Origin: Mesostigma viride
Taxonomy: Eukaryota > Streptophyta > Mesostigmatophyceae > Mesostigmatales > Mesostigmataceae
Reading direction: 5' to 3'
Assembly (NCBI GenBank): GCA_009746045.1
Contig: RPFO01000745.1
Span: forward strand, 1-64,000
DNA: 64,000 bases
The notes beneath the pieces were generated by a model. That model worked only from the letters and a program-made list of their open reading frames with translations, was not told the DNA's origin and did not search any database. Shown here one piece after another: positions 27,534-48,057 of the stretch. Made by a program: the position numbers and the translations under genes. Position 1 is the stretch's first letter; each line of letters starts with the position of its first letter.

Positions 27534-29449
27534 ATGACGAGCAAACGCTCCTCGACGCAACGCAGCCTGGCGGCTGCGCTCGGCAATGAAAATACGTCTG
27601 CAGCTCCAGCTGCAGCTTCGCCATCAGGGCCGGAAGGCTGTGGTGACACTAGTCGCGCACTGGTGCTCGCCGCCTCGCCCCGAACCCTCCCGGGCTTTCC
27701 TCGCCCTCTGCATCGCCTGACCCAAAGCGCAGTCGCCCAGGCGAACCTGGCTGGTCTGAGCGTGATTTTGACGTTGCTAGGCTCTTTACCACCTTCGACG
27801 TCAACACGCCTGCCTTTTTCGACATATTGCCACCCATCATGCAAGATACTGGAGCTCGTGTTTTACGGGTCACACGCCTCACTGCTGGCCCTGTGCCAGC
27901 AACTCCAACTCAACACCCACTTTTTCCGCAACGGAGCTGACGGCCGGTTTTCCCATCGCGTATCTGACGACCCTTCTCCGGCCAACCTGGCCGGCTGGTC
28001 TCGCCCCCGCCTTCAGCTCGCAGCTCTCTTTACCCTCGTTAAGCGCTCGGCCGAGGACCTTCTGCACCCCGCCCCCATTACCGAATCCACCTTCCTCCAC
28101 CACCTCCACGACGCCCTCTCACAGCACGTGACGCCCATTGCTGCAGATGTGGCAGCTGTGGGTCGCATGCTGGCTGCTGAGCTCCCCACCATCCCCACCG
28201 CCACCGCCACCCTCCTCGCCTCCCCCCCCCCCCCCTCCGCCTCCACCGACTCCATCACCGCCCAGCTCCGCGACATCGACCAGCGTCTTAAGGACAATGC
28301 CATCGCTATCGAGGTCCTGCATGCAGAACACCGCAGGCCTCACCGCCCAGGCGGTGAAGGACATTGCCGCCAAGCCAGCCCCTGCTGGCCTGGCCGGCAA
28401 TGCTCCTCCCTGCATCACGACCTGAGCGGACATGCTTAAGCAGCACACCACCTCCACCACCTCCGCCGTCGCAGCCCAGCTCCAGCGGCAGACGCTTGAC
28501 CTCCGCGAGTAGACCGAGCTCGCCAAGCGCAGCCTAAACGTCATTGTCAGGAACTTCGACATGGAGGAAGGTGAGAATTCCGAGAAGCTCACGCGTGCGT
28601 TTGAGAGAGAAATCCTAGGTCGCATGGGCCTGAATCGGGTGAGCTAGATCGAGGTGGTCGCCCACCGCCTTCCCCGCGCGCGGGGTAAGGCATGGGGGCG
28701 CCCCCGCTCCTTCTCGATCACCTTTCAGAACCTGGCGGACAAGATTTCTTTCCTTAGACGCCGCAAGCGGCTCGAGAAGACTCACTTCACCCTTGACGAC
28801 GACTTGACCCTGGCGCAGCAACAACGGCGACGGGAGCTATGGCCGACCTACCTCCAGCTCCGGCAGACCAAGGCGGGGCAGCCGGTGTGCTGGAAGGGGG
28901 CGGCCATCTACGTCGGCCACAAGCCCTGGCATGCGACCCCCGCCGCGCGGCCCCAACGACTGACTCGAGACGCCCCAGCTTAGTAGGGGAATACAGCAGT
29001 AGTAGTGTAGAATATATAATAGACCGTGGCCATGTACATGTACGCCTCCTACATGCACTATTCCAGCTGATTCACGAGCATGCATTATTTAGCCATGTAC
29101 ATGCGTGCCTATGATGTGCCACACCCCAGATGATGCCTAGCTTTATTTCGTTAAGCTGTGCCCATGCAGAGAGCTGCTCTCTGCTGAGATGCCGCGCTCT
29201 AGTTTTTTAATTTGTATAGCTATGATGATCTTCCCCCCCATGACTGTAGGCTCCCCCTTAGCTCCAGGGGCATAGCTTGATAGATCATGGGGATGCAGGT
29301 GCCCTGGTGCACCTAGAGCAAGGGTCGTTTACATTCCCACCCTTGCAGGAAGTAGCTTAGAATGTATTACAGGCCATATGCCCCTTCTCAAAGGCTATGT
29401 GCTACATATACTCCCAACGGAGTTATGTTCCTAATTAATTAATTAATTA
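27534..29449 (+). pseudogene. LINE ORF1-like protein remnant with 3' tail
   Basis: The first 300 codons (27534-28439) hold a low-complexity N-terminus, then an alpha-helical region with TAQLRDIDQRLKDNAIAIEV that fits a coiled coil. Frame changes lead to VIVRNFDMEEGEN and, from 28654, to a basic domain with FQNLADKISFLRRRK, TLAQQQRRRELWPTYL and VCWKGAAIYV. This order resembles ORF1 nucleic-acid chaperones of L1-like LINEs. No ORF2 follows; instead a 3' UTR ends ATACTCCCAACGGAGTTATG (29409-29428) and a (TTAA)n tail adjoining the viral element. It is an internally deleted retroelement or a non-autonomous relative. Confidence 0.6.
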
Positions 29450-30154
29450 TCTTCCATCATCATTCCGTCATCATTCCGTCATCGCGACTAGCAAATGTGC
29501 ACCACCCTTATGCTGGCATATGCCACCCCTATAGTGACCCTATAGTGACCGCGGCCTAGGATGGGGTCTCACCCTAGCTAAAACCTAAACCCTGAACCCA
29601 AACCCGTCTCCAGACTTTCCTTGACCCCATGGCCTATGAGGGGCACTGCTCACCAGGTTATGACATTTAGGCTGGCATCTGTCACCACCCCGGCAGTTGT
29701 GATGGTGTGTTGGGGTGTGACAAGGATGGCGAAAAATTGCACGTACTTACTCTTAAGATTAAGAACGCCCAATTTTTCGCCACCCTGCCACCCCTTGGCG
29801 CGGGTCATAGGAGGTGTTTGTCAAGGTGTGAGAGTGATGGCGAAAAATTGCACGTACTTACTCTTAAGATTAAGAACGCCCAATTTTTCGCCACCCTGCC
29901 ACCCCTTGGCGCGGGTCATAGGAGGTGTTTGTCAAGGTGTGAGAGTGATGGCGAAAAATTGCACGTACTTACTCTTAAGAGAAAGAACGCCCAATTTTTC
30001 GCCACCTTCCCCCACTGGCCGGCGCTGGGGTTGGCGTGGGTTGTTGGATGTGGCGAAAAATTGCACGTACTTACTCTATATATAAAGAACGCCCAATTTT
30101 TCGCCATGTCCTCGCATGGTGAGGGAGGCGACGAGGGCCGCGCGGCGGGGTGTG
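29433..30154 (+). repeat. PLV left terminal inverted repeat
   Basis: Near-perfect inverted copy of 47333-48057, running from the (TTAA)n array through TATCTTCCATCATC to GGCGGGGTGTG. It contains a degenerate telomere-like stretch (29580-29607) and four hairpin iterons. Confidence 0.95.
29728..30105 (+). repeat. Four hairpin iterons in left inverted repeat
   Basis: Units at 29728-29781, 29839-29892, 29950-30003 and 30052-30105. Each is 54 bp, opens GGCGAAAAATTG and closes with its exact complement CAATTTTTCGCC. The first three are spaced 111 bp apart with near-identical spacers; the fourth has a different spacer and an altered core (CTCTATATATAAAG instead of CTCTTAAGA). Confidence 0.95.
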
Positions 30155-30279
30155 ACCGGAACCGGATCGACGTCTACTCGGAGACGAGGAGACAGTGAGC
30201 GCGACGTCTTGGAGGTTGTAAACCGTTTTTACAAAGAAATGCATGGCAGAAAAACAGGCTTTTATTAAAATATTTAAAA

Positions 30280-33200
30280 TTACTTATCCGCTCCCTGCAG
30301 GAAAGGAGCGATTTCATCCATCGACAGGCCAGACAACGACGTGATCGAATAATCCTTCTCATCGCCCCACCACGAGGGTTTATACCTATCAAGAAACGCA
30401 TGCATGTCCGCCTTCGAAATTTCCAAGTAACCACCGCCACGGCTGTTGCCCTTTGACCCTTTGGCAGAAATTCCCAGAGTTGGGCTTAACAACCTGTTGA
30501 CGAGCCCGCTACACTGTGCAAAAGACAAACTACCAGCCTCGCCTGCTCGCCGTTGGTATCCAAATGTTGAGCGCATGAACCAGGCCTTGTCGGCAATTTC
30601 GCCGTCAATTCTATTCCCTAGTGCAATCGTCTCGTCGCGCGTCAACTTCATTGTGAGATTGGACGGATCAGCCGTCGTGATGAAGTCGATGATAGGCGTC
30701 CCTTCTAGTAGCTTGAGCGTAATGGCCAGAGACTGTGCTAGTCCAAAACGAGAATACGCCTTCAAATCAAACAAGGACTCTGACTTCTGCAGAATCAACA
30801 GATTGTCTCTGAAATGCTCCTTGGTTCCTAGTCCCGTCAACTTCGAATATTGCCGAATGCCAACGTACGCCTTCCTCCCCATCTCCTTGTCCAGAATTTG
30901 AGGGAGCTCGTCGTCGATGAGATTATATGGAATCTCATACAACCGATGAGTCAATTCGTACACCGCCTTCAGACGCATTTCGTACGGTGAAAGTGGAACC
31001 GTGCCGCCGATTCTCCCCTCTAGATCCTTGTACTCCTCCTCGCTCAGAAGCACCACCTCCCTGTCCTTGTCTGGATCTTCTAGTACCGGAAGCGGAGGGG
31101 CGTCGATGTCCCCCAACTCCTCCACAGCCGACACCTCCACGCCGTAGTCCTCCGTCAGTATCTTGATGAGATTTCCCTTGTAGTGGGACCTCGACACCGC
31201 GAGATCTTGCTGGTTCCGGCAGAAGAGACGGAACTTGGGGCAATTTCTGTCATAGATACGCGACTTGTCCGCGCTCCAGTCGCAGACTACGTCGGCGTTG
31301 TCGAACAGCAGCTGGATGAGCGCAGTGTCCCCCGCGATCATGTTCTCGACGATCGTGCCGTAGTCCGTTGGGGGGCGGTTAATGAGCGAAGTATCGTCTC
31401 GGTAGAAGATTACCATCTCTCCCTTGACTAGATGGCGAACCCTAAAAATTTGCTGGAGGGTTGTCGTGTAGCTCGCGTAGTTATCCCCGTTGATGAACAT
31501 CCCCACCATGCTGTCGAATGTGTGCTCGGTATAGGAGACCCCAACCGTGATCGTTGGACTGAAAATCAGAAAGTCAAGGTCAGCCCACGCAGCATTCGCA
31601 CCAACCTCTAGATCCTCTTTGCTTGTCAGGCTAGTGTAAAGGCGACCATTCTTTTTCTGCTCTGTGATTTTTTTTAATACCTCATACGCCATGGCGGCCT
31701 CTTTTTTTCCAGACATTGGGCAGAAGATCCTCTCACCCGCCTCTATCCTCCTCTGACACTCAGTAACAAACCTGTCCACGCAGACCTTTCGCCAGTTCTT
31801 TTCTGATGTCACATCCACCCATCGCAGAGTCCTGTTGGTAGGGCGCCGGAAGGTGTTGCAATCCACCTCCATAGTATCCGCCGCGCGATAGGCCGCTATG
31901 AACTCGTATACCTTTCGAGTAACGGTAGCGTCTAATGCAATCACGACCTTGGACGTCTCAATGAGCCTGATGAACTTCCTCAACACCTCGCGCTTGTATT
32001 TCACGTGGCCCTGCGAAATCGCGGTGAGGGTGTTATATATTTCGTCTAGGATGAGGAGATCGAACGGTTGGTCTGTGACGCGCAAGATGCTGTTAAGAAC
32101 AACCAGCACCCTGTCATCAGACATCATCCCCTTCGGACCGCTCAGGTAGTGACGGAAATTCGGGTCACTGGACAAGATATGGAACGCGTTGTCCTCCCAT
32201 GCAATCGTCCTCCCGCGCTCGCCCAGAGACTTGTAGTTGCGATCCTCCTCCTTGGACAGGCTGATGTTAGCCACCATGCAGCACACGCGAATACCTGGAT
32301 CCCTCCTCACCGCCTCGTTGACGAGTTCACGAATCCTCTCAGATTTACCTGTCCGCAGTTGGACTGGACGAGGATGGTGCTCTTGTGCGGGCCTCTAAAT
32401 AGCGCATCCCAGCTGAAAGGCTTGATTTTCTCGGACGAGTACGTGTGAGTGAACGGGACTTGATCAGAGTCCGCCCCTTGCATAACGGGAGGTGCGATCT
32501 CGATCTTGCGAGCATCTGGCGATTTCCTGTAGCAGTCATAGAATACCTGCCCCGATGGGTATTGGAGCGTGAATGGGCCGTTCTTCTCGTGCACCTTGTT
32601 GCAGATGAGGCAGATGTGGTCGTCACACTGTTGATACTTAACCCTCACGAGCTTGACGTCTGGAGACAACTCAATGCGGCCACATTCGAGGTAATCACAT
32701 TCGGGGGCCACCTTCTCCATCGCGGCGAGAGATGCAGAAATGTCGATGTCCTTGCCCGCCGCCTTCACCGTACACTCGCGACGTCCGCGAACCCTCTCCT
32801 CTTGAGCGATGCCGCCCAGTCCGGAGGCGCACTCACTACCACCCCGCCAGAGACGTCGTCAGGCGAGTAAACGTTGATGAGATGGTCGAGGAAGTCGCTC
32901 GACGAGCCTTCGCATGTGCGCAGAATTCCCAGAGGGTCGGTATCCCCAAACTTGTGCATCCCGACGCACCGGAAAAGACTGTCTCTCCTGTAGACGGCCT
33001 CGTCGATCACCGTATCCATTTCGCCAAAAAAGTCAGCTGGGTGGCGACAGATCTCGTCGAATTCTTCTTGACCGCTGACCTTGTATTTAAGCAGCTCGTG
33101 AGCGTCATCGTGAACAGGCGAAGAAGTGTCGAACGATGCGCGCTTGATAAAATCGGTGAGGCCGCTGTACCAATACACTCTCGCGTCAAGGTCGGCAAGA

Positions 33201-33775
33201 ACGAGACCGCGCACGACGATGTGGAAGGACGATTTGAACAGATCCTTCTTCATGCGAGACGCTGTGCTGACCTCGTAGCGAAAACCCTCCGTCGCGATGT
33301 TCAGGACGACTCGGCAATACTCGTCGTGCACACGGCGGAAGTGTCCTGGATAATCGATGTTTGCCAGACGCTCGTCATCTGGATCGACCTTGTCGTCTAT
33401 GTCGACGTACGCCCACGACGGGTCGTCTGGCTTTATGACTTCGTCGAGCGTGCGGCGAACGGGATGAGCAGCGCACTCCGCATAGATCCGCGAAAAGTCT
33501 GCGAGGTTGCCGTAATGCGCGTACTCGTTGGCGTCTCGCGTGTTGATGCCACGCGCGCAAATGAAACGATGGCCGAGAGACACCCCGGCCTCTTTTGTGG
33601 GGGCCTTCTTGTAGCGCCATTGCGTGACGACCTTGTTCATGGTCTCATGGGTGGCCTCGGGTGGTGGGTGGAGTAGAGCCAGCCACGGAATGTCCGAGTC
33701 CTTTACATTCCCACCGGATGTCGAAAAACTTCCAGAAGGTCCGACTGCGACGACACGACTTGGTGCAGACGACAT
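30280..33775 (-). pseudogene. PLV primase-superfamily 2 helicase (AEP plus UL9-like), two frameshifts
   Basis: This is a replication protein expected to prime and unwind viral DNA. The N-terminal part (33775-32765) is an archaeo-eukaryotic primase: YVDIDDK supplies the metal-binding acidic pair and KSSFHIVV the downstream His motif. The middle part (about 32768-32307) has a Cys/His cluster (CDDHICLICNKVH) like the zinc-binding region of viral primases. The C-terminal 676 residues resemble herpesvirus UL9-type origin-binding helicases, with LLILDEIYN (Walker B) and VIALDATVTRKV (motif III). A shift near 32765 joins primase to the middle part. A second, near 32350, falls inside the Walker A loop, just after SNCGQ, so the ATPase is lost as written. 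A TAGA (TCTA on the coding strand) at 33794-33797 lies upstream of ATG 33775. It ends TAA at 30280. Confidence 0.85.
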
Positions 33776-33793
33776 GATATTATATTATATGTT

Positions 33794-33994: not shown

Positions 33995-35244
33995 TTACAG
34001 TATTTTCCTCGGCCTCAGCCGACGTCCGCCAGTCTCGCCACCCCCCTGCCGCTCGTAAAGGGCTCCTGTGAGCACGTCGTGTCCCATCAAGTCACCAGCC
34101 CATTTTCGCTTTTGCCACGACGCGCCCTTCAGAAAACGGGTGATGTACGCCTGCCTGGTTGCATCGATGCCGTGGTAGATGCGGTTATAGCGGTTGCTAT
34201 ATAAGGTGTGATCTATTGGATTGCCCGGAGACCTCGGGTCCTCGAATACGTATGCCTGGTTAGCTCTCGCCCCAAGTGCGTTAATCAGCTTAGAGTACCC
34301 ATCTGGGATCTTGAAGTCGTAGACGCCGAAAGTCTCTCGCGTCTTGAATTTTTTGATGATGATGCGATGCTCGCTAGGAATGTATCCGTTCTCGTGCGGC
34401 CCGAGCTCGTCGATAGACCCGACGATGCGCATTTGATCGTGGTCGTACCTGGTCGGAGGCAATTTCTCACCGGACAGATAGAAGACCCATCAGAGCTGCG
34501 TCGGAAGGGGTCCTTTTTGTACTCGGCGGCGGCGATCCGCTGGAGCTGCTCGTACGTGTGTCTCAAGGGCTTGTTCTCGGCCCTATAGAACTTCCTGTCG
34601 ATATCGCCGACCTTCAGCTCACTGACCCGGGCAGCATACGCGTCCGTCACGTCGCGTGGGAGCCTCTTCTCGGATGGCATCATTCGATTCACCCCGTTGA
34701 CGACGCCAAACAGGTTCTTCTCGTTCTCCCTCCACGCGTCCTCTTTCGAATGCGCGAGATTGCGTTTAGGTTCCGAGGTCTCGTGGACGACGCGAAGGAC
34801 GAGGGCGGTGTCGGCGAGGCAATCGACCGACTCGTCTTGCGAGCACCCCATTTTGTCGAGGAGAACTCGCAGCCTGCCGATGTACCCCCTCGCGGTTCTG
34901 CGCGTCGCCCCGCGCTCTTTCGAGGGCCTGCCAGGCTCGTGATGCTCTGGCCGGGCATCCGCTGCGGCGACGGCCTCGTTGAACGTCCAATATCGCCCAT
35001 CGCTAACTCGCGCGGTAGTTTCGCCGGGATGAACCGGTTCCGGCGAGGGTGGAGAGGTCGCCTCCAAGCCGATTTTGTCCGCGCACTCTGGGTTATTTGC
35101 GATCCATCGGTCACTGGGATTCCAGACGCCCTTCTTGACCTTGCTCTTGGCCGAGATGCAGTTCGTCTGGTCGCGGGCGATGGCTCGCCTCTTCGCCTGG
35201 GCCCGTCGCCACTGCTCGCGGCGCTCTTCCACAGTCACCGTCAT
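33995..35244 (-). pseudogene. PLV tyrosine recombinase (integrase), frameshifted
   Basis: This is probably the integrase of the element. The N-terminal part is rich in Arg/Lys; the C-terminal part (34462-33995) carries tyrosine-recombinase features: an Arg-containing DATRQAYITRFL segment and GHDVLTGALYER, giving the late His and the candidate nucleophilic Tyr in the usual spacing. A single frame change near 34465 separates the two halves. I prefer ATG 35244 because a TCTA motif lies 15 nt upstream at 35260-35263; the in-frame ATG at 35259 would overlap the motif. The assignment rests on the C-terminal motifs and is less certain than that of the capsid genes. Confidence 0.65.
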
Positions 35245-35605
35245 TTGATGACTGAACATTAGACAATTTTTTTGCCCGTGGCTTTTTATACCCCACGGGG
35301 TGGATTCTTGGGCGTCCTCTGGGCCGCTTTGGTTCGTGTCGTTTTTCCGTTTTGGAGGGTAACCGCCCACGTGGACGCCTGCGATCGCTCACCAAGGCGA
35401 GGATAGCCAATCGGATTTCGGGTTTCATATCGTGACAGGTGGACGGAATCGTGTCGTTGTGGCCAGCTTCTTGAAGGATCCTAACGACACGTTCTAACGT
35501 TTTCTGTCCGAGACGAGATCCCGCGCAGTACCGAAGCAGTGCTTGAGTGTCTAGAACGTACTCCTTCTCGACGCCAGTGTATCGTTTTGCGGGCGAAGGA
35601 TTCAT
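35111..35605 (-). CDS. PLV small AT-hook protein
   Basis: The ORF starts at ATG 35605. Its first 75 residues are a helical, acidic-to-neutral region (EKEYVLDTQALLRYC). A basic segment KRPRGRPRIHP, the canonical RGRP core of an AT-hook, and KKPRAKK follow, so minor-groove DNA binding is likely. As read it continues into the recombinase gene in another frame; the true end is probably near 35265, because a TAA lies in the adjacent frame after an A-run (about 35264-35270), which suggests a one-base indel. Function unknown; a recombination or replication accessory role is suggested only by position. Confidence 0.6.
   Translation of the reverse strand: MNPSPAKRYTGVEKEYVLDTQALLRYCAGSRLGQKTLERVVRILQEAGHNDTIPSTCHDMKPEIRLAILALVSDRRRPRGRLPSKTEKRHEPKRPRGRPRIHPVGYKKPRAKKLSNVQSSNDGDCGRAPRAVATGPGEEASHRPRPDELHLGQEQGQEGRLESQ
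35260..35263 (-). promoter_or_regulatory. TCTA motif upstream of recombinase
   Basis: Follows a T/A run on the coding strand and lies 15 nt before ATG 35244. Confidence 0.45.
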
Positions 35606-35627
35606 GTTATATTATAATCAGAGAAAT

Positions 35628-36511
35628 TTATTTTATCGACAAGAAAACATTGAAGTTCTTTCGAAACATTTTTTTCGGGTCGCGTTGGTCGAAGTCGATC
35701 CCGAAAAAACTATGAGGGTCGTCCTTGACGGCGTGATCCCACAGCGCGAGAAACTCGTCTGGCGCCACGGCTCCTGCGCTCTCTTCCGCGATCTGACGCG
35801 CGGCCCTGTGGTCTTTTGTGCGAAAAGAGCCAGAAAACTGATATTGGCTCGCACTGCTCTAGGGACACCACCGCTGGTGTACGCTTGCGTAAGGAAAATC
35901 ATACTCGTTAGGAAATGCCTGTGCTTGAAAGCAAAAGCCGCGACAGCGTTCTTGGAAGAGCTTTGGTAGAGTGCGCTCCCTTGCATATCGTCAATCAGAA
36001 TCAGTGAGCTAGGAGGACCGTGCTCGAACCTGGTCTCGGGTTTCGTCCAGTTCATGGCGTCTAGACGCAGATACATCGACAGCTCCATCAAATCTTCGTT
36101 TTTCTTTCCGTGGACGTATTCGCGTTGAAACGTTTCCCACACCCTGAGATCGTCCTTGTACCGCTCGTACTCGTGGAGGTCAGATTTGATGTGATCCACC
36201 ATTCCATCGAATGCCAGGTTGGAGTACACTTCCATCTCCATCACTGGCTCGGGGAGCTCTTTGTACTTTGGCTCCGTGTGTGCGGATCCACTGATAAGGT
36301 AGAGCTTGTCGAATGAGTTGTTAGTGAAATAAGTCTTCGCCATGTTGACCGCCGCGGTTGTTTTTCCCGAACGCCTCGCCCCACAAAAGTTGGCAATGAA
36401 GTGCAAGCTCGGCATGTTTTGCGGGGCGGGACGCTGAGGGGCGTATCGCTGCTTGATGTCCCTATTCTCCAGCGATTGAATTCGTCGCTCTTCGATGACA
36501 GCCATTACCAT
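35628..36511 (-). pseudogene. PLV packaging ATPase, FtsK/HerA (A32-like), C-terminal frameshift
   Basis: This is the motor expected to translocate viral DNA into the capsid. Walker A is GARRSGKTTAAVN (about residues 44-56), and Walker B is SSLILIDDM (about residues 168-176), followed by a TQAYTSGG segment. The reading frame changes near 35827 at a T run (four T where the conserved frame needs five). The downstream frame then encodes a plausible continuation, with IAEESAGAV and FFGIDFDQRDP, ending TAA at 35628-35630. Total length near 290 residues is normal for the family. The ATGs at 36511 and 36505 are both possible starts. Confidence 0.88.
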
Positions 36512-36584
36512 TCTTAAGACATTTTATTCCTCCAATGAAGCGAGGAGGGATGCCGGATGGCGGCCATGCGAATCTCGTACGGGG

Positions 36585-37049
36585 TCATCGCGACAGGGGC
36601 GGGGGTGGCGGTGGAAGCTGGCGGGTCTTGATCGGGGGTGGCGGGGTGTCCGGCTCTGACTCCCTTGGTTTTCGCCCCCGTCTAGGTTTCGGCGTGTCGG
36701 CGGGTGTCGAGGCGACGCTGTCTTCCGCAAGAAGGCGTTCGATGCGCGATTTATTTCGAGCTTCTTGCAGCTCGAGTTCAACGAGCCTTTGTCGCTGGAT
36801 TTCCAGTTCCTTCGCGAGGACCTTGCGCTTCGTTATCTCTGCCTCCTTTTCATCGTTCCGTCTCTTCTCCCTCTCTGCCTTTGAGCGCTGTTGATAAATC
36901 CTCATCTTGTCACGTAGGGCCTTTTTCTGTTCGTCGTTCAACGGCTGTCCTTTTCGAATCGTCCTGACCAGGTCCACCTGCTCTTCCCGAGTCTCGGCGA
37001 AGGTCTCGTCCTGGAAGCTCATTGGGGTCTCTGAAGCCTCAGAGGCCAT
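36585..37049 (-). CDS. PLV coiled-coil protein with basic AT-hook-like tail
   Basis: 154 residues. Residues about 35-110 are a long charged helix (KALRDKMRIYQQRSKAEREK through ELEIQRQRLVELELQEARN) that predicts as coiled coil. A Pro/Thr-rich linker with KPRRGRKPRE and a polyproline end follow. The C-terminus may be frameshifted: beyond the stop, an adjacent frame reads MTPYEIRMAAIRHP, which looks coding. It could be a scaffold or DNA-binding virion protein; no family is recognised. Its start faces the plus-strand structural gene across only 24 bp. Confidence 0.6.
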   Translation of the reverse strand: MASEASETPMSFQDETFAETREEQVDLVRTIRKGQPLNDEQKKALRDKMRIYQQRSKAEREKRRNDEKEAEITKRKVLAKELEIQRQRLVELELQEARNKSRIERLLAEDSVASTPADTPKPRRGRKPRESEPDTPPPPIKTRQLPPPPPPLSR

Positions 37050-37073: not shown

Positions 37074-39115
37074 ATGGTCGTGCTTACAACCCTGAGCAGA
37101 CCGACAAACCTCGCCACCGGGTTAACGCTCGACCCCGAAATGGAGGAGCGTGTTTCTGCTGTCGAAACGGACATCGACGGGCTTGAGACTAGCGTGTCGT
37201 ACTTCTGAGCAAGTCGCACCCATTTGATGAGTCGCTTGTCGTCGACGGATTCAAAATTTTTTATCCAAGCCAACCGACAAATTTGCGACTCGGAGACGAT
37301 TACGACGACGAAACCGCGAGTGACCCATCGGAACTCGTCTACAACCTCGTCGTGAACGGGTATTCGTATTTCAAAAGGCACTACGATAGTCGACGATCTC
37401 ACTCTAAACGAACCGTACCTTACGGCGAAAGTGGGAGCAAACCAATACCACGTCTTCGACTTCAGCCCTGACACGCTGCTAGACCCCGGCGGCAGAGTCC
37501 TGACCCGCGCGCAACTGGACTATCTTTTCGACCAACACGGAGTAGGCACCACGTCGATAACTAATTTGAACGGGGATTTCGTCCTTCATCTCGAAGACGG
37601 GACGACCGTGTCGCACCAAAACGCGTTCAGCGTCATCAACGACCAGGATGTGCGAGTTCAGCTTCCTTACAATGTTACTAATGGCGACGCGAGTGGGATT
37701 TGTAAATATACGTATCGCGACTATCACATGACCCAATCGGCCATGGGCGATAACGTCGTGGATGGAACAGTGGGGTATCCGTATTTTTCCGATGCGTTCT
37801 TTGGACTCGGCGGATCTCGATTCAACGGCCTCCCTCTCCGCGTGGAGTTGTTGTCTTTCGCACGATTCGCGACGACAACCGCCGCCTTCCACTAACTGGG
37901 AGATCGTTCACCATCACGCGTACCTACTCGCCACTCACGGATTGGAGAATGGGACCGATTGAACCTTTGAACGCAATCCACTGGAGCACCACTCCCGCCA
38001 ATGCTACATGGGAGGTAGTGGAGGGTACGACCCTCAAACAGGGCATTAAGATGACGACCCCTTTCGCGTACCAACGCAAACTTCCCATCAGGTGGTACAT
38101 GAATTCCACACAGCTCACGCCGACCACCCCGACGATCGGCGGAGTCTCCCTCTCGCAAAACGGAGGACTGCGCGGGGAAGACGCCGTAATCACCGCGCCA
38201 GTAGCGGCAGACAGTAATAAGTTTTTGAACTACGAGATAGACGTATACAACGACTCCACCCTTACCGCATGCAGCACCCAAAAAGGAGGGATGTTTATAT
38301 GCGTTTCAAAAATGAGCCAGCTTCACCCGGCATCCGGACCCCGAGTTCGTACATTTCGTACCTCAATCCTGTAAAAATCGCGATTAACGGCGTGTACGCA
38401 GACCATGGCGTTGGATGGGGGAAGTCGTTGAATCCTCTCACCGGTTTTCATCTGATGGCGAACGGGGTGTCTCAAGTGGCGTTGGACGGGAAGTTGACGA
38501 CAACAACGTTCCAAAACCCATCCGAAGGCGATGATGTAGAACTCAGATACAGGATCGTAACCGTAAAGGACTCGCCAAACCTGTCAGGAGAGACCGTGGA
38601 GATAGACGGCCCCGCTACGACGCTCCATTCTCTAGAATCATTCTCGCGCCACTCCGTGACCACGCTGCAAACAGAAGCTTCGAAATACTACTTTGAAGGA
38701 TCTCCCGAAAAATTCTTTTTGGTAAAAACAGCCACTCCGGCACCAAGCAAATGTGTTGTTTTTTCAGAGCAGCTCATAGACGGCCCATTTCTATTGTGTT
38801 TTCAGCTATATTTGGGCAGCAACGATGCCTTTGTCTCGTTCGCGGAAAATACTATGTCTTTGACGAACAAATATCACCCGGCCACGACAGATGCCCATCA
38901 GAACTGGAGAAATGCAGCTACGACGCATTGGGGTATGCTGGGTATCAATCTCACCATAGTGACTATGCACTCGACCTGTTTGACAATCTGAAGTCGAAGG
39001 TTCGATACACGTTAAACTCATCATGGAGGCAACAAAACAGCTACTGGGTGGCATTTAGAGAAAGTCGGATGGAAAGGTGGAGCGTTATATATCAAAAACA
39101 ACTCCTCAAGAACTT
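37074..39115 (+). pseudogene. PLV large structural protein, multiply frameshifted
   Basis: Starting at ATG 37074 (MVVLTTLSRPTNLATG), coding sequence can be followed for about 2 kb, with frame changes near 37195, 37390, 37870, 38290 and 38870. Segments that look continuous include VYNLVVNGYSYF, KVGANQYHVFDFSPDTL, TRAQLDYLFDQHGV, MGPIEPLNAIHW and YLNPVKIAINGVYADHG. It is Thr/Ser/Asn/Gly-rich and beta-like, with no transmembrane segment; an early GLETS-containing helix may trimerise. I do not recognise a domain. Size and position at the start of the right arm suggest a spike or minor virion protein. This is one gene if all shifts are indels; two genes remain possible. Confidence 0.6.
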
Positions 39116-39121
39116 AGTGAC

Positions 39122-39967
39122 ATGACTAAAATCTCAAACTCGTCCGGTATATTTACAACCACTCCTACAGACATTCTTGACCCGTACATTCCGATGCCCC
39201 TCCGACCAGTCTTCCACTTGAGCGGAGAGTACCACGGCGCGTATGTCTGGCCCATTAAAGACGACCTCCAAGACATAGAGTTCGACTCTCTAAAAACCAA
39301 CAACCCATCCGGAGCGTACACAGCCGTCGGCGACGTGTTGGAGCTGCGTCACAGGTCCACCTCGTCGAGGAATTGTAGCATTTTCGGGAAATACAGCGTA
39401 ACAAAACCCGTGCCAGGTGTTGCAAATACTTGGTTCAAGGAGCTAACACTCACGAATGAGAGTGTCATACGCACGGTTGTTAAGTGCCCGGATGTTCAAT
39501 ACGGCGTGCAAATGAACGAATATACTGCCAAAATATATGGGATTCTACCAGCTCGTCAGTCGGTGAGGAAGTTTTATGTAAGACTTGGATTTTCAAACAC
39601 CAAGTTGAGCAATGATCCATTGCTTATCAGCGTAGTCGTCGGAGAATCGTGGACTGGTGGTTTTTCTACAACGACAATATCAAAATCCTCGTCGTACGTT
39701 GACATAACCTGTGATCATATTTCACTGGTTGATCCTCCAGTTACTGGTATGATCCATTTGGCGACCGTGACGTTCCAGGTATTAGATCCAACTGTATCTG
39801 GCCCGAGCCCGCTTTTATTTGCTTCCAGCCTAAGCTACTATTATGGATCAAACCTGTCGTCGATCGGCGGCAATCACGGGATGGACGTGGCCCTGTATGA
39901 AGATGTCCGAGAGACTCGACGTATATCCCATACAATATTGGAAGCAGATAATCTTTGGTCGGTCTGA
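39122..39967 (+). CDS. PLV putative virion protein, unknown
   Basis: I chose ATG 39122 (MTKISNSSGIF), giving 281 residues; the frame is also open upstream to 39077. The protein is beta-rich and Ser/Thr/Val-rich (DILDPYIPMPLRPVFHLSGEY, VVVGESWTGGFSTTTISKSS), with no transmembrane segment, like a capsid-associated or fibre protein. It is one of the few plus-strand PLV genes without an internal frameshift, although its last residues overlap the next ORF in another frame and a terminal indel is possible. No family recognised. Confidence 0.6.
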   Translation: MTKISNSSGIFTTTPTDILDPYIPMPLRPVFHLSGEYHGAYVWPIKDDLQDIEFDSLKTNNPSGAYTAVGDVLELRHRSTSSRNCSIFGKYSVTKPVPGVANTWFKELTLTNESVIRTVVKCPDVQYGVQMNEYTAKIYGILPARQSVRKFYVRLGFSNTKLSNDPLLISVVVGESWTGGFSTTTISKSSSYVDITCDHISLVDPPVTGMIHLATVTFQVLDPTVSGPSPLLFASSLSYYYGSNLSSIGGNHGMDVALYEDVRETRRISHTILEADNLWSV

Positions 39968-40380
39968 GGCAGCCCATATACGACTACCCGCTTCCGCAAT
40001 TTTGGCACGGCGCCCCTGTGGCCGTGATGTCTTTCCACGACCCGGCAACGCAATCGGAACTAACTCTTCCGACCGCGTTGACCAATATCCTTGTCAGGTT
40101 AACATTTGATAACAACCCACCAACGATTCTCGACATATCAAACCCATATCGCTTAACGGCTAGCGGCCTGTCCGTCTGGCCGGAAAACGTTATCATTGGC
40201 AGCAACTGGAATGTTGTTTCGGGGTACGAAGAGGATGAAGGGGTGTTTGAAATCGCCTTGAGGATTCCTCGCATCACCACTGACACGTCAACAAACATAG
40301 CACTATCTACGGCGTTTTGTAAGTCACGCGCTGGAAAAATGGCCGCGTCGACTAACAAGACCCTCACTTGGACGCTATAA
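39955..40380 (+). CDS. PLV putative virion protein, unknown, 141 codons
   Basis: The open frame contains QPIYDYPLPQFWHG, PTALTNILVRLTFDNNPP, WPENVIIGSNWNVVSGYEED and a Thr-rich C-terminus, ending TAA. It has no good ATG: the frame opens at TTG 39955, and an internal ATG lies later. It could therefore be the frameshifted C-terminal domain of the preceding gene. Beta-rich, no motif recognised. Confidence 0.5.
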   Translation: MVGLRQPIYDYPLPQFWHGAPVAVMSFHDPATQSELTLPTALTNILVRLTFDNNPPTILDISNPYRLTASGLSVWPENVIIGSNWNVVSGYEEDEGVFEIALRIPRITTDTSTNIALSTAFCKSRAGKMAASTNKTLTWTL

Positions 40381-40387: not shown

Positions 40388-40402
40388 TGATTATACTCAG
40401 AA

Positions 40403-40905
40403 ATGGCGAGGCGTCAGAAAACAGCAAGGCGTCGTCCTGTAGGCAAAAGGGGAAAACCAAGCGAAAGGTCGCACCCAGTCGCAGGTGACCGCTTCATCGA
40501 CCAACACCATTGTCATCCACAGCGCGCCGGTCCGAAGAGCGGTGAACAAAGGCAAGGTCGCAGAGGCGCGAGGGTTCAAGGACGCCCTTCTGATGGCGTC
40601 AGTCATGGCGAACTCAAGACCGGTCGCGTACCCCCGTTATCCGCGTATGCCCAACCGGCACCTGTCGCGGCTCCCGAACCGGTTGTCGTCGATGCGGGAC
40701 TGGCGGCACCCCCGAGCCTGCGGGTGTATCTGTCGGAAAGCGAGTCCAGGTGGGGGGCACGAGGTGGAAATGCCCACAGCCCGGGTGTAAAAGCACGTTC
40801 GCAAACGAAAAAAACCTCCTTCTGCATCTCAGGAGGGTCCACAACACGGTAGTGGGAATCCCAAAAGAGGCGCGGAAAAAAATCTCACAGAAGAGTAACA
40901 CATGA
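40403..40905 (+). pseudogene. PLV basic protein with C-terminal C2H2 zinc finger, frameshifted
   Basis: ATG 40403 begins a very basic N-terminus (ARRQKTARRRPVGKRGK). The frame changes near 40480 (to VIHSAPVRRAVNKGKVAEARGF), then near 40625 (to AQPAPVAAPEPVVVDAG), and again near 40735. The final frame holds a textbook C2H2 zinc finger at about 40765-40842: CPQPGC, then 12 residues, then HLRRVH, i.e. C-x4-C-x12-H-x4-H. The TGA at 40903-40905 overlaps the next ATG as ATGA. Role unknown: nucleic-acid binding in the virion or transcriptional control. Confidence 0.65.
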
Positions 40906-41140
40906 GCAACCCGCTGTTCACCGACGCCGAGATGCTCGAGATATCGCAGTGGATGACCCTTCACACAAACGTCCCCCGGGAATTCATCGAATCAGCCATG
41001 CTTTATTGTAGGAAGAAGCCGCTCACCGGAAAAAAAAGCGCGCTATCAAAAGGGCGATGGCACAGAAAGAAGAGGGCGTGGTCAAGGTTTTTGGGACAAA
41101 CGAAATTACTTCTGAGCTAATGTCAGACGAAGTGGCCGAT
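40902..41140 (+). pseudogene. PLV small ORF, unknown, frameshifted
   Basis: ATG 40902 overlaps the preceding stop (ATGA). It begins MSNPLFTDAEMLEISQWM, a helical acidic segment with VPREFIESAMLYCRKKP. After the A-run at about 41031-41037 the next frame (KRAMAQKEEGVVKVFGTNEI) looks more coding than the original. It would end close to the penton start at 41139. Tight packing supports co-transcription with neighbours. No family recognised. Confidence 0.5.
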
Positions 41141-42001
41141 GAAGGAGTTCATCCAGGAGACGCTGACACTCACTCTTCGCACGGAGAACCGGACTCGCGG
41201 GACGCTAGTGGATCCGGTGTGGGACATCCCGGCGGGGCTCCTTGACGACTATCACGACGTCGGGCTTACCCTCATGACCATCCCGTTTGAACAGACTCAC
41301 ATCAGCGAAGGAAACCGATACTTCACTGTCCGTTTGTCTGGCAGCGAGTCGCCCGTCAAGGTGACTTTGCCGCTCGGCTCCTACACGACCATCGAAAACC
41401 GGAAAAACATTGAGGACGCTTTGAAGGCGGTGGATCCGGGTTCTCGGTCACGTACAACAGGGCGACTAGCCTTTTTACCGTGACCAATGCCGTCGAGTTC
41501 TCTATCTCGGTGGATGAGCCAACGGGCCGGGTGTTGGGGCTCATGGAAGGCTCTTATCCTCTCACAGGCGCCCTCGCTAGCAACCGGCCAGCAACGAATG
41601 GGAGACTGAGAATGGTGTATGTGTATAGTGACATCGTCCGGGGAAATGTGATATCGTCATCGACAGGAACTGGATATGGAGGTCTTTTGGCAGTTTGCCC
41701 CAATATGTCGCAGTTCTTAGAACCCATTGTTTGGCAGGCAGCGAACCCTTTGTGGCAGCATCTCAAGGACTCTCCCAGCAACATCACGATCCGACTGCTC
41801 GACGAAGACGACGCTCCTATAACTGTCTACTCTGACTGGGCTCTTCAGCTCTCCTTCCGCATAAGCCCTCAGAAGGCGATGGGGATAGAGGCTAGGAAGA
41901 TCGGGAGCGTTTTGAAATACATGGCCCTAGATAGGACCGTCCAGCCACAAACCAGATTAATTTCTCAGCCATCTAGTACTGTCGAGGACGATGAAACTTA
42001 A
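41139..42001 (+). pseudogene. PLV penton-like minor capsid protein, one frameshift
   Basis: Expected to form the pentameric vertices. ATG 41139 (MKEFIQETLTLTLRTE). The first frame carries GNRYFTVRLSGSESPVKVTLP and the second (from 41480) VYVYSDIVRGNVISSS, GYGGLLAVCPNMSQFLEPIVW, NITIRLLDEDDAPI and LQLSFRI, the usual succession of strands in polinton and PLV penton proteins (single jelly roll). The shift lies in the GGG-containing stretch near 41440. It ends TAA at 41999-42001, overlapping the next ATG at 41991. The position just before the major capsid gene is typical of PLVs. Confidence 0.75.
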
Positions 42002-42346
42002 TTTTGGCGCGATCGGAAACGTGGCTAGACGCGTGGGCGAGTTTGCTGGAAACGCAATCAAGAGGGTCGGCGACGGGGCGGCGATCGTGTCGGCTGTCAA
42101 GAAGGCCGGCACGTCGCGGGAGAGGTTATCTCGAAAATCGGAGACGGGGCGCGAGCCGCGAGACAGGTCGCGGGCATCGTCGATTCAGCGCTCGGGCACG
42201 TCCCCTCTACCATGATCGCGAAAAGTACGCTCCTCGGGAAAGCGTACTCGGCCGCGAACACGGGGCTGAGCGCCCTATCGAATCTCGAGAGAAGAGTGGA
42301 CGGGGCGAAAGTAAAAAATCCTATACTCGGCCAGCTCCTTCAGTAA
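41991..42346 (+). pseudogene. PLV small Ala/Gly/Val-rich virion protein (pVI-like), one frameshift
   Basis: ATG 41991 (MKLNFGAIGNVARRVGEFAG). The first 40 residues form amphipathic helices; after a frame change near 42112 the next frame continues in the same style (VISKIGDGARAARQVAGIVD, LGKAYSAANTGLSALSNLE) and ends TAA 42344-42346. Small amphipathic, basic proteins next to capsid genes occur in adenoviruses and PLVs (pVI or pX-like, capsid cementing or membrane lysis). The comparison is by character and position only. Confidence 0.6.
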
Positions 42347-42376: not shown

Positions 42377-43669
42377 ATGGCTTCTGACAACTCCTGGTAC
42401 TCCCGCGCTATCCCAAAGTCTATGCAATACCTCGTGAAGGCGCTAGGCCAACACACGACTCAGCGAGTGCATCTCAGCACCCTCTCAGCCAGCGACGGCA
42501 TCAAACAAGGGTCCGTGGTCGCGGTTCGCCTGCCCACGTCCGGGTTCGTGGACTTGCACTCCTTCGCCATGTTTTTCACGGGAACGCCGACGACCACGGC
42601 GGGGTTCGCGAAGTTCCCCGCGTACACGTCCTCCATCGTCAGGCGCCTCGAGGTGCTGGCAGGAGGGCAGACTGTCGATAGCATCAACGACTACTCCCAG
42701 CTGTTCCATACTCTTCTCTCGGTGCACGGAGGTGTCGAGTACAACCTCGCACAGGCTCCTGCTGGTTGGTCGAAGAATAGCAACACCGTCACCGCTGACG
42801 TGGCTGGCACTCTTACAACAACGTGAAGGCGAACACAGCGGTGGACGGCGTCATCGACCACTTTTGGATTCCTGAGCGGCGAGCCTCGGATCGTGGATCT
42901 GAGTCTCTTCCCTCCCATCGAGATCCGAATCACACTCATGGACGGAGGGGTGATGCTCCCTAGCGTGGCGCAGGCAGCCGCAGCAGGCGATGGCATCGTG
43001 GCCGTTGCAGCAGCGACAGGTGTTGGTTTCGAACTGAGCAACATCCACTTTAGCATCGACACGTACAGGTTCCAAGAGGATATCGTGGGCCAGATTTTCT
43101 CGTCCAGGCTTGCCGAGGGTGGAACTCTCTCCTTCAAGTGGCGGACGTGGCAGTCCACCAAACAGTCGCTCGGGACTCGTTCTCCCTATGCCATCAAGGC
43201 GTCGCTGTCTTCCGCGTCCGCCAGCAAACTCCTGGCGATTCAGGTTGCTGCCGGCGCGGACGTGACCAACGCATCCGGCAATACGATGTTCAATCACATC
43301 GCGGATGGTATGACTTCCTACCAATACGACATCAACGGATCCAACCTAGCGCCTGGATACCGTACGAACGCAACCGAGGCGTGGATCAATCTGTTGTCCG
43401 CGTTCGGTGACCAAGGGAATGTCTTGTCCTGTGTCCGGGAGGGTATGACTCCTACCACGTGGCTAAACAACAACTTCACGATGGCGTGTCACCTTAATAT
43501 GCCGTGTGCCGGTCCAGAGTACATGAGCGGCCTTGACCTTCGTGGCACGGCATCGGTGGTCACGCTGCGAGTCGAGAAGGGAGCGACGGACTGCATTTCC
43601 TACATCTTCACGGAGTGCGAATCAAAGATGGACATCGCTGCAGGCAGGCAGGCAGCTGTGTACCTCTAA
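42377..43669 (+). pseudogene. PLV major capsid protein (double jelly roll), two close frameshifts
   Basis: This is the hexon-like shell protein. ATG 42377 (MASDNSWYSRAIPKSM) is chosen over the in-frame GTG at 42362. The first frame shows VHLSTLSASDGIKQGSVVAV and VDLHSFAMFFTG, the second (from about 42862) has GEPRIVDLSLFPPIEIRITL, the conserved strand pair of PLV capsid proteins, and LSNIHFSIDTYRF. The C-terminal half has LNNNFTMACHLNMPC and SYIFTECES. Two indels about 50 bp apart, near 42815 and 42865 (the second in a TTTTGG run), interrupt it. Total length near 430 codons is short to normal for PLVs. It ends TAA 43667-43669. Confidence 0.85.
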
Positions 43670-43870: not shown

Positions 43871-45581
43871 ATGACTAGTCTATACAAATGTTGTTGGATA
43901 GTGGTATATGCCCCGCTCTTTTATATAAACGCCGCGTTCCTGGTACCTCGGTCACGGTCGGGTTATCAACAGTGGACCTTACACCATCGGATGTCCCCGT
44001 TCTCGTTATGGCGACATTCAATGAAGATGTCACGGGTTTTGATCTATCAGACATTGACGTGACAAACGGAACGGCAGTCGGCCTATTTTTAGGTGCACCG
44101 GCGACGTACTTTTTTGACATTACAAATATCACAGGTTCGATCCCAACCACGGTTTCCGTGAAAGAAAATAAGGTAACAGGGGTGTCTGGTGCGTACAACG
44201 AAGACTCTAATCTGTTATCATTCACCTACACCCTCCCCCACCGCCGTCACGCTTGCTACAACGGCAGGGACGTATCCAACCACAAGCCCCGTCACAATGG
44301 ATGTCACATTTGACAAGCCCGTGACCGGGTTTGGTAGCGGGGACATCTACGTGAACAACGGAACAGTGTCGTCGGTAACCGGTACCGGGGCATCATACCA
44401 GTTCGCAGTGACACCGACCACTCCATACTCCCAGACGACCGTGAGGGTGGTCGATGGCACGACGGTAGGCGAATTCGGGGTCACAAACGCCGAGTCCAAC
44501 ACGGTCGCGTTCACCTACTCCCCTCCGCCTACAGTCACCCTCGCGACTTCGGCCGGGGCAACACCGTCCACGAGCCCAGTCGGCGTGACGGCCACCTTCA
44601 GCCGGTCAGTCACTGGTTTCGCGCTCGGGGACGTCGTCGTTACCAACGGGACGGCGTCCAACTTGGTGCAGGTAAACGCGGCCTTTTACACGTTCGACGT
44701 GTCAGGAACCTCGAACACGTTGACGACCGTCAGCGTGGGTTCCAACGCGGCGACGGACTCCGTGTCGGGTAACGGGAACTCGGCGTCTAACTCTCTTACT
44801 TTTACGTATACACCAGGTTACAACCCCGCAACAGACCCCAATTTGTTCGCGTGGTACGATCCGTCCGACAGCGCCACGGTGTTCAGCCACTGGCACAACC
44901 CAGCAAAACACGACAGGTGGGAACGTGATGCGCGTGAACGACAAGGGGCCGAACGGGTACCACGTGACGCAGGCAACTTCCGCCAAGTGCCCGACACTGG
45001 ATACGGCGGAGCTGAACTCGAAACGGTCCCTCCGTTTTATTAACTCGCGGTCTGGCTTGTTGGAGTCCGTGAACAATTTCTGGAATGCGGTCGGGGTAAG
45101 TGCGAGTGTTTTTCTAGTCGCAAAACAACTAACGACTGCAACGTATCCACAATTAGGGGATATGCTACGGGTCTCCGAGGATATATGCTTGGATCGTCGA
45201 ACGGCGATTGTTACCTCATGTCTTATCAGTCAGAGAACAGATCGTTCTCCTCTTTACTCCCGTCTGTACGCGACACCGTGAGCACCAGGCTCAGTTCTTT
45301 GACAACAATGCACACGTCTGGCGCTTTCATGCAACAGCAGTACAAACGCCTTTCTCACCCGCTTCGACGGACGAGCTGGCTATGACAGAGTGGGATCGGA
45401 TCCTATACTTGGTTCAGGGAATCTTTCTATTGGAGGAGACTCGTCCAACACGAGTCGCGCTTTTGATGGGTGGATCGGCGAGATCCTTATCTACAACACC
45501 GCCAAAACGTCAGCGGAGCTTGAGGTGATCCGCGGCTACCTCGCAGCCAAGTGGGGGGCGCCGTTAACTCCTCCAGCATAG
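43871..45581 (+). pseudogene. PLV fibre/adhesin: three Ig-like repeats plus lectin-fold domain, frameshifted
   Basis: A likely host-attachment protein. After a short N-terminus (ATG 43871, frame change near 43915) three tandem Ig-like domains of about 95 residues follow (about 43945-44230, 44235-44520, 44527-44812), each with FxxxVTGFxxxDIxVxNGT, the signature of bacterial-type Big_12 repeats, and ending LSFTYT or similar. From 44830 a concanavalin A/LamG-like domain begins (NLFAWYDPSDSATVF, then VNDKGPNGYHVTQAT) and closes with FDGWIGEILIYNTAKTSAEL and GYLAAKWG, typical for this fold. Frame changes lie near 44225, 44915, 45150 and 45385. It ends TAG at 45579-45581. Bacterial-like domain combinations in an algal virus fibre suggest exchange. 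Confidence 0.8.
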
Positions 45582-45598
45582 GCCTCTATAACTAAATA

Positions 45599-45602: not shown

Positions 45603-45619
45603 TCCATATCATGTAAGCA

Positions 45620-46335
45620 ATGGACTATCCAAATTATTACCAGATAGTACTTGACAGCGAGGCCTCATCGAGTGACAGTGACGTCGAGAACGCGGCATTT
45701 CGTTTTAAAATTAAGCCAGATCCGAGTGCTCCCATCATTGACGGGGATTGGAGAGGCGGGCTTCACTTTGCTTCCATTGCAGGAATCGAAAGCACCCCCC
45801 CTCACGTGCTCATTGGCTTGGTATCCCCCAGTTTCTTGGGTGGTGAGCACAATTTGGACCAGGGGGTTGTGTTGGGATCAGAAATATGCAAAAAAACAAC
45901 AGCAACAACGACCACTTTCGACTATTCTTTGATCAATGATCACGCATATTTCAATTTGAGGAATCCACATCTCTTTAGGAACGGGGGCATTCTGGAGATA
46001 AGGTTGGCCCACATAGATAGGGACGTAGGAGACACGGAATATCAAAACGTTGCTGCATATGAATCTTTCGTCTGCGTGTTACAATTTGAGAGGGTGCGAG
46101 GTTTTACTAAATGCAAATGTCACGGTAAGTAATTTCTGTGCATTATACGACAATATGTATGGGTGGATGCCTTGGAAAATTCACATTGGTGGACACCCTG
46201 GAGAATTCGTTCAGGCGTATGAGAAACGACCCCGAGTACGCGCGAGCTTACGAGTCCGTTTACCTGAATTCACGTCCCAGAACTCGCCACGTGGTAGAGG
46301 CCACTCTGGACTTGCATCACTGCAAATTTTAGCCA
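45620..46335 (+). pseudogene. PLV putative structural protein, frameshifted
   Basis: ATG 45620 (MDYPNYYQIVLDSEASSSDS). The first 160 residues look like a beta-sandwich virion protein (NAAFRFKIKPDPSAPI, DWRGGLHFASIAGI, HLFRNGGILEIRLAH). The frame changes near 46090, leading to VTVSNFCALYDN and YGWMPWKIHIGGHPGEF, then again near 46195 to NSFRRMRNDPEYARAYESVY, ending TAG at 46330-46332. No family is firmly recognised; the opening residues and the W-containing strand resemble minor virion proteins of polinton-like elements, which is weak evidence. Confidence 0.5.
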
Positions 46336-46481
46336 AGTTCGACACTTGTGCAAGTCTCGCCACCTCCGCGCCCTGTCCAGGCCGTGCCAGCAGACGTAAC
46401 GGACCTTTGCACACGGTGCACAAATAGGCAAAATCACGTACAAGTCACGCATCTCACGTTGCAAGCCCTCTGCCGGTAGCC

Positions 46482-47057
46482 ATGGCTTCCCGACACGCAG
46501 GGCCCTGCGAGAAGGCGCTGGCCACGCTTGGGAAATACCTCGATGGTCTCGAGGACGGCCAGACAAAGATATCGGACCAACTCTCCTACCTGACGCATCA
46601 GGTCTCCCTTTTGTCCGGGGCACCCGGTGCTGTTGGAGGCACCGGACCTACCTGCGAGGTTCTCAAGATTCACGACGCCGGATATGACGATGTCGACCGC
46701 AAGACGCCCAAAATTTGCGTCGAGTGGGTCTACGAGAGGAACGCGGCAAGGCCGAGGAAGGTCGAGGACCGATGTGAGTGGATTCGCCTCGACCAAGCCG
46801 ACGGATGCGTTAAGATGGTCGACGAATTCGTCGATGGCTTCTTAAAGTCCAAGCGCCAGCCAGGCATTGCCCCCGTTACCCTCTACAAGGCATGGGAGGA
46901 GGCAAAGAAGGGTTTCGAGGACGCAAAGACCGCCACTTCCCATGGCAGGAAGAGGAACCGCGAGGAAGTGTCAAGCTCCCGCGGCCTTGGCGACAAGAGG
47001 AAGACCGGCTCGAACGTTGTGAAGAGCCAGACTGGAAACTCCAAGGACAAGGAGTAG
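46482..47057 (+). CDS. PLV 191-aa basic-tailed protein, unknown, intact
   Basis: ATG 46482 to TAG 47055-47057 with no frameshift, in contrast to most neighbours. Residues 1-45 predict helical (EKALATLGKYLDGLEDGQ). The central part (about 57-130) has CEVLKIHDAGYDDVDRKTP, a Trp-containing VEWVYERN and CEWIRLDQADGCVKMVDEF. The C-terminal 40 residues are Lys/Arg/Ser-rich with a nuclear-localisation-like GRKRNRE. No family recognised. It is the last gene before the right inverted repeat; a nuclear regulatory or host-interaction role is only a guess. Confidence 0.7.
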   Translation: MASRHAGPCEKALATLGKYLDGLEDGQTKISDQLSYLTHQVSLLSGAPGAVGGTGPTCEVLKIHDAGYDDVDRKTPKICVEWVYERNAARPRKVEDRCEWIRLDQADGCVKMVDEFVDGFLKSKRQPGIAPVTLYKAWEEAKKGFEDAKTATSHGRKRNREEVSSSRGLGDKRKTGSNVVKSQTGNSKDKE

Positions 47058-47332
47058 AGTGTCGTCTTGTTGACGACGGCAACGAGCTTGCCATTTCGCT
47101 CTTGTTCAATGAGCTGATAACGAATGTGAACGTGATATAAATTTTAATGAATTCGTTTATGCAGTATACAACGCGTCAATGCATGCTGAAAACAATTTTC
47201 ATTCGTCTCGAAATGCAGTTCTAACTACGGGTTTTTAATCCAGAGTAAACCTCTCGTGCATCAACGCAGGTCGTATGGGATTCTTGCATAGGTCGTCTGA
47301 GTTTCTAGAGGTTACACAGAGTAATCTCTTTG
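47058..47332. other. Non-coding stretch before right inverted repeat
   Basis: AT-rich, no ORF. Holds the 3' UTR of the 191-aa gene. Confidence 0.5.
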
Positions 47333-48057
47333 CACACCCCGCCGCGCGGCCCTCGTCGCCTCCCTCACCATGCGAGGACATGGCGAAAAATTGGGCGTTC
47401 TTTATATATAGAGTAAGTACGTGCAATTTTTCGCCACATCCAACAACCCACGCCAACCCCAGCGCCGGCCAGTGGGGGAAGGTGGCGAAAAATTGGGCGT
47501 TCTTTCTCTTAAGAGTAAGTACGTGCAATTTTTCGCCATCACTCTCACACCTTGACAAACACCTCCTATGACCCGCGCCAAGGGGTGGCAGGGTGGCGAA
47601 AAATTGGGCGTTCTTTCTCTTAAGAGTAAGTACGTGCAATTTTTCGCCATCACTCTCACACCTTGACAAACACCTCCTATGACCCGCGCCAAGGGGTGGC
47701 GGGGTGGCGAAAAATTGGGCGTTCTTAATCTTAAGAGTAAGTACGTGCAATTTTTCGCCATCCTTGTCACACCCCCCAACACACCATCACAACTGCCGGG
47801 GTGGTGACAGATGCCAGCCTAAATGTCATAACCTGGTGAGCAGTGCCCCTCATAGGCCATGGGGTCAAGGAAAGTCTGGAGACGGGTTTGGGTTCAGGGT
47901 TTAGGTTTTAGCTAGGGTGAGACCCCATCCTAGGACGCGGTCACTATAGGGTCACTATAGGGGTGGCAGATGCCAGCATAAGGGTGGTGCACATTTGCTA
48001 GTCGCGATGACGGAATGATGACGGAATGATGATGGAAGATAATTAATTAATTAATTA
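47333..48057 (-). repeat. PLV right terminal inverted repeat
   Basis: Inverted copy of 29433-30154 with very few differences, so the two ends have been homogenised or are young. It ends GGAAGATA followed by the (TTAA)n array. Confidence 0.95.
47382..47759 (-). repeat. Four hairpin iterons in right inverted repeat
   Basis: Mirror of the left array: the outer boundaries GGCGAAAAATTG (47382) and CAATTTTTCGCC (ending 47759) enclose four units; the variant TATATA-core unit is again the innermost. Confidence 0.95.

Follow-up and report, generated by a model that had tools for sequence, protein, structure and literature searches.

The question raised by this locus is what kind of element lies between two long inverted repeats in contig RPFO01000745.1 of the Mesostigma viride assembly GCA_009746045.1, and by what means it would have been copied. 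The first 64,000 nucleotides of that contig, here called the window, were analysed. The element occupies positions 29433-48060, i.e., 18,628 bp with both terminal inverted repeats included, and we read it, with a probability of about 0.7, as the integrated and now decayed genome of a small double jelly-roll DNA virus of the polinton-like kind. The basis of this reading is the inverted ends, the capsid fold obtained via a relative, a superfamily 2 (SF2) helicase of the Herpes_ori_bp type, a fibre with immunoglobulin (Ig)-like domains and the broken reading frames; the site is probably the chromosome of this green alga. The most unusual parts are the Herpes_ori_bp-type SF2 replicase and a palindrome array within both repeats, neither of which had been named in an earlier note made from the letters alone (the sequence-only reading).

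The element and its ends

The two repeat arms align with 717 identical bases, five substitutions and six gap columns (one 2-bp gap and one additional AATT unit), i.e., they are about 99% identical, and both ends terminate in AATT units (four at the left end, five at the right). Nothing obvious is shared by the flanks outside these units. Save for a possible AATT, a target duplication is thus absent, a lack that suits a tyrosine recombinase and proves none. The two arms are not identical and are bordered by different flanks, so that they are no simple assembly copy; such an artefact, which the sequence-only reading had itself raised, is not supported. Its near-identical repeats of about 720 bp are confirmed and its coordinates were right within 3 bases.

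From about 37070 the gene layout diverges, with the replicase, a recombinase candidate, an ATPase and a charged protein leftward and the structural half rightward (Table 1). All 52 open reading frames (ORFs) of at least 80 amino acids that run with the coding direction of either half were scanned with Pfam, a set that leaves shorter pieces and families lacking a model uncovered, and no family of PolB, of rve/DDE integrases or of proteases was found, in agreement with the absences listed in the sequence-only reading. A Maverick/Polinton was rejected on the same scans (no PolB or rve integrase), even if pieces may have been lost from so broken an element. Polinton-like viruses (PLVs) measure 14-40 kb, end in inverted repeats in most cases and have a double jelly-roll major capsid protein; the length of the element and its repeats of 722 and 728 bp lie within these bounds, and a capsid of that fold is predicted through the relative P0005. 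Other traits by which PLVs are recognized are a capsid of the PgVV-like sequence family, an A32-type packaging ATPase and a minor capsid (penton) protein; for the last two the element has a likely gene and a candidate, respectively.

The replicase

The ORF at 30280-32394 matches Herpes_ori_bp with an E value of 1e-21, and thereby carries the SF2 helicase domain that characterizes the herpes origin-binding type. It also matches replication origin-binding proteins in the PDB (1e-8, or 9.7e-12 using a profile of three relatives) and phrog_4913, a phage replication family (6e-19). The Herpes_ori_bp match spans profile positions 105-425 of 820, which cover the helicase. Upstream, on the same strand, cysteine-rich and primase-like stretches align with the N-terminal part of the full-length P0008 and P0009. 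Motifs of an archaeo-eukaryotic primase (AEP) were read by eye in the primase-like stretch, whose sole Pfam match is AEP_C962R (E 0.25, below cut-off) and whose pieces gave weak matches to other proteins or none in sequence searches of the PDB. Hence, in the primase-helicase that had been proposed earlier, the helicase is clear whereas the primase is weaker.

Five relatives of the helicase were found, P0008 (53%), P0009 (54%), P0010 (34%, with 12 member sequences) and two that are distant, of which one is fungal; in relatives of the replicase ResIII stays below cut-off. No match was returned by tblastn of the helicase ORF against a phage collection, and the sequence and alignment gave no confirmed relative in IMG/VR, where the alignment scan used two peptide patterns and is weak evidence of absence. 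The best relatives of the element proteins are 54-67% identical. Genes that lie side by side here are joined in three gene models of Mesvir1, namely P0009 (ATPase and helicase), P0010 (recombinase region and helicase) and P0006 (capsid and fibre); if these models are right, other copies retain the same gene order.

Palindromes within the terminal repeats

Each repeat contains four imperfect 56-bp palindromes, eight in total against none expected from 100 shuffles. Their outer 13-bp half-sites are identical in 16 of 16 cases, and only three other half-site matches occur in the window, each with two mismatches. Folded singly, the four left palindromes reach hairpin z values of -7.4 to -8.5, as any palindrome would. 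Copies 1 and 2 are identical together with their spacers and look like recent duplicates. Copy 4 is 52/56 identical to each other copy, the differences being confined to the centre, and the spacer preceding it is 34/57 identical to the other spacers (over 200 shuffled spacers the mean was 47% and the maximum 58%); such conserved arms beside a diverged spacer hint at a constraint on the arms.

That the palindromes are putative replication origins is the natural guess, because the replicase belongs to the origin-binding helicase family. The viral genome would then have been linear with inverted ends, and a tyrosine recombinase would have joined it to the chromosome, leaving no target duplication beyond the possible AATT. 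The virus would have made no polymerase of its own; its primase-helicase would bind the palindromes of both ends at their paired half-sites, open the palindrome centres and prime, and a host or helper-virus polymerase would extend the primers. Genes for replication, integration and packaging run leftward from about 37070, those for structure rightward. On a broader scale, these elements might constitute a separate small double jelly-roll lineage of an early-branching streptophyte alga, in which polymerase-led copying has been replaced by a herpesvirus-like one (a primase fused to an origin-binding-type SF2 helicase, palindromic origin arrays in both repeats and a host polymerase), a proposal that we regard as tentative and, taken whole, somewhat unlikely.

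Two alternatives bear directly on this scheme. It is quite possible that the palindromes serve a recombinase, packaging or transcription, or arose as a side effect when repeats were duplicated, instead of being origins: paired inverted half-sites suit recombinases, a recombinase candidate is encoded, and copies 1 and 2 resemble recent duplicates. However, four copies per end, with arms retained beside a diverged spacer, are more like a binding-site array. There is also a reasonable chance, if not the better one, that the element was a satellite copied by the polymerase of a giant virus rather than by that of the host, since no polymerase family was found among the scanned ORFs and the PLV known as PgVV replicates alongside a giant virus (PMC10120064), although a host polymerase would serve equally.

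Many of the integrated elements of PMC10120064 have no detectable polymerase, and putative origins of this kind offer a concrete candidate for polymerase-less polinton-like elements. The palindromes, furthermore, render the origin question directly testable.

Capsid, fibre and the remaining genes

The capsid claimed in the sequence-only reading is supported through a predicted structure: the double jelly-roll fold appears in the model of the relative P0005, with which the capsid pieces of the window align. A first model was poor (predicted local distance difference test, pLDDT, 42.4) and a second was built from more rows. The best solved-structure matches are giant-virus-type capsids, virophage capsids match too, and a MELD virus protein ranks 15 among the fold matches; a protein of Tetraselmis viridis virus S1, which came second with the first, poorer model, is absent among the 50 matches listed for the better one. 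The VIA-align rows name the Sputnik and mavirus capsids and no PLV capsid, which excludes nothing. Only seven close capsid relatives were obtained by protein search, the ORF and its profile found no capsid in sequence searches of the PDB, and neither sequence nor alignments gave a confirmed relative in IMG/VR, with alignment scans that used two peptide patterns each and weigh little as evidence of absence.

The fibre had been described as carrying Ig and lectin domains. Its Ig-like part stands (Big_12, E 1.9e-16) and P0006 matches it at 51%, but the LamG part falls below cut-off, and a lectin-bearing fibre is not distinctive in any case because LamG fibres have been reported in PLVs (PMC12220804). 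The penton and the tyrosine recombinase of the same account are unproven: Pfam, PHROGs, NCBIfam and the PDB returned no match for the pieces tried of both candidates (a PDB sequence search with a penton piece gave, at best, weak matches to other proteins), the catalytic residues of the recombinase candidate were recognized by eye only, and it has no confirmed relative in IMG/VR. Residues 28-122 of P0010 match 34905-34636 in this region (tblastn), which could hold one gene or two. The AT-hook protein proposed there comes down to one canonical core near 35326, and this stretch could be no more than the beginning of the recombinase candidate. Residues 1-41 of P0009 match the ATPase at 49%; a piece of the ATPase gave weak matches to other proteins or none in the PDB (sequence search), and IMG/VR held no confirmed relative.

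Several observations weigh against the reading of the element as such a virus and of its palindromes as origins. The capsid model, made for a relative and not for the window protein, is of low confidence, chiefly in the second half. The Herpes_ori_bp match stops short of the DNA-binding end, so that origin binding is not covered. The sign of arm constraint depends on the single comparison with copy 4, since copies 1 and 2 appear to be recent duplicates. The palindrome pattern had no match in IMG/VR, nor did the element genes scanned there have any confirmed relative. The Laminin_G_3 match of the fibre (E 0.0003) reaches 21.4 bits against a cut-off of 27.6, and the packaging ATPase, likely as it is and as had been claimed, matches Pox_A32 (E 0.00054) at 19.9 bits against 22.8. 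Finally, the penton and recombinase candidates have no profile support.

Table 1. Features of the element, with positions in the window.
Feature	Position	Strand	Basis or remark
Left terminal inverted repeat	29433..30154	+	722 bp
Four 56-bp palindromes, left repeat	29727-29782, 29838-29893, 29949-30004, 30051-30106	.	within 29727..30106
Primase-like region, Cys-rich stretch and SF2 (Herpes_ori_bp-type) helicase	30280..33784	-	three reading frames; Pfam, tblastn P0008/P0009/P0010, alignment
Tyrosine-recombinase candidate, AT-hook near 35326	33995..35611	-	three ORFs in two frames; motif by eye
Packaging ATPase, likely	35633..36523	-	Pox_A32 E 0.00054, below cut-off
Charged, coiled-coil-like protein	36585..37058	-	ORF; no Pfam match at its cut-off
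Long reading spread over several frames	37080..40380	+	ORFs; no Pfam match at cut-off
Basic protein, possible C2H2 finger	40391..40905	+	zf-C2H2 E 0.0054, below cut-off
Penton candidate	41121..42001	+	two ORFs, each in its own frame; judged by position and by a motif seen by eye
Small protein directly upstream of capsid gene	42029..42346	+	P0003 match starts at 42110
Major capsid protein gene	42377..43669	+	stop at 42824-42826; fold of relative P0005, sequence relatives
Fibre with Ig-like (Big_12) domains and LamG-like end	43879..45578	+	several frames; Pfam, P0006 similarity
Protein, open reading frame	45617..46132	+	no match found
Protein with basic end, open reading frame	46428..47057	+	no match found
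Four 56-bp palindromes, right repeat	47381-47436, 47483-47538, 47594-47649, 47705-47760	.	within 47381..47760
Right terminal inverted repeat	47333..48060	-	728 bp

Decay of this copy

This copy is decayed. The replicase is spread over three frames, the recombinase candidate over three ORFs in two frames and the penton candidate over two frames; the capsid reading is interrupted by the stop at 42824-42826, and frame changes occur in the fibre and in the 37080-40380 region. As to the sequence-only reading, an integrated small double jelly-roll virus, nearly complete in structure, is well supported, decayed as this copy is. That the breaks are sequence errors in an intact element is unlikely. The insertion may be young, since the arms are 99% identical; nevertheless, the single 2-bp gap between the two 722-bp arms leads, as a very rough guess, to about 11 indels expected in 16 kb, so that ordinary decay suffices, and two retroelement ORFs of 1020 and 860 amino acids remain open in the same window, a mild argument because they were noticed for being open.

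The surrounding window

The 1020-amino-acid ORF (18048-21110, minus strand) resembles, by eye, a reverse transcriptase of the Penelope-like type whose N-terminus is GIY-YIG-like, with no Pfam match at E 0.001. A partial inverted copy of it at about 4067-6101 is 97-98% alike, and the resulting inverted repeats are larger than those of the virus; a second virus at 4067-18890 was rejected, as these repeats belong to reverse-transcriptase ORFs. Two head-to-tail copies of a Ty3/gypsy-like element occupy 51868-61715 (protease, reverse transcriptase and RNase H at 59133-61715; protease at 55288-55932), with a 126-bp tandem duplication inside this region at 58502-58763. The end of a chromodomain-bearing retroelement lies at 773-1678, and a fragment with a reverse-transcriptase match below cut-off at 25733-26368. 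Pieces of a dihydrouridine synthase (Dus) gene, probably of the host, are found at 8740-11532 on the minus strand (Pfam E 6.8e-15 and 1.2e-6), and a 695-bp purine-rich repeat of AG type at 7344-8038. Rfam and tRNA scans over the window gave no matches.

Comparison with known viruses

A literature search for Mesostigma viride and Polinton, with subscription papers, preprints and supplements outside its scope, found no paper; among the matches listed, the sole one with both Mesostigma and polinton-like virus concerns Drosophila viruses. PMC10120064 mentions streptophyte capsids, and its main text does not name Mesostigma.

The element resembles the PLVs (PMC4642659, PMC7805220, PMC10120064) in size, inverted repeats, double jelly-roll capsid, integration in an alga, likely packaging ATPase, absence of a protease and tyrosine-recombinase candidate. 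In contrast, its capsid has no sequence relative among the named PLVs, and its replicase is an SF2 Herpes_ori_bp-type protein, whereas theirs are pPolB, TVpol-S3H or primase-SF3. The Cymbomonas PLVs (PMC10675990) are likewise integrated in many copies in a green alga, with inverted repeats and, in some, a tyrosine recombinase; however, PLVA and PLVB have pPolB or TVpol-type polymerases and PLV2 has pPolB and no recombinase, while no polymerase family was found here.

A primase joined to an SF2 helicase, as in the element, is described in 20 Rhodomonas lacustris PLVs, which are cryptophyte PLVs, and in one MELD virus element (PMC12220804). The MELD domains given in that paper are Prim-Pol, PriCT_2 and ResIII, whereas Herpes_ori_bp dominates here. 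Furthermore, an AEP with a UL9-like SF2 helicase and no polymerase also occurs in a subset of the Yaraviridae (PMC11253617). That the element is nearer to the mriyaviruses, a group of small viruses related to the giant ones, than to PLVs is very doubtful in spite of this shared replicase and of the giant-virus-type capsids that best match the capsid model, since virophage capsids match it too, Mriyaviricetes genomes measure 35-45 kb, all with an HUH endonuclease and, in the accessible text, no mention of inverted repeats or a recombinase, against 18.6 kb with inverted repeats here, and the Pfam scans, which a divergent HUH could escape, held no HUH, RuvC or late-transcription-factor family.

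The small number of capsid relatives makes the undescribed lineage suggested by the sequence-only reading plausible, although the lectin-bearing fibre invoked for it is not distinctive and the AT-hook invoked with it may belong to the recombinase candidate. The kind of element is already known; its capsid family, its Herpes_ori_bp-type replicase and its palindrome arrays would make it a variant for which the literature searched offered no description. With it comes a capsid family for which hardly any relatives are known, probably within the streptophyte line, to which land plants belong as well, and, if the proposed copying is true, one replicase module would be common to polinton-like viruses, mriyaviruses and herpesviruses.
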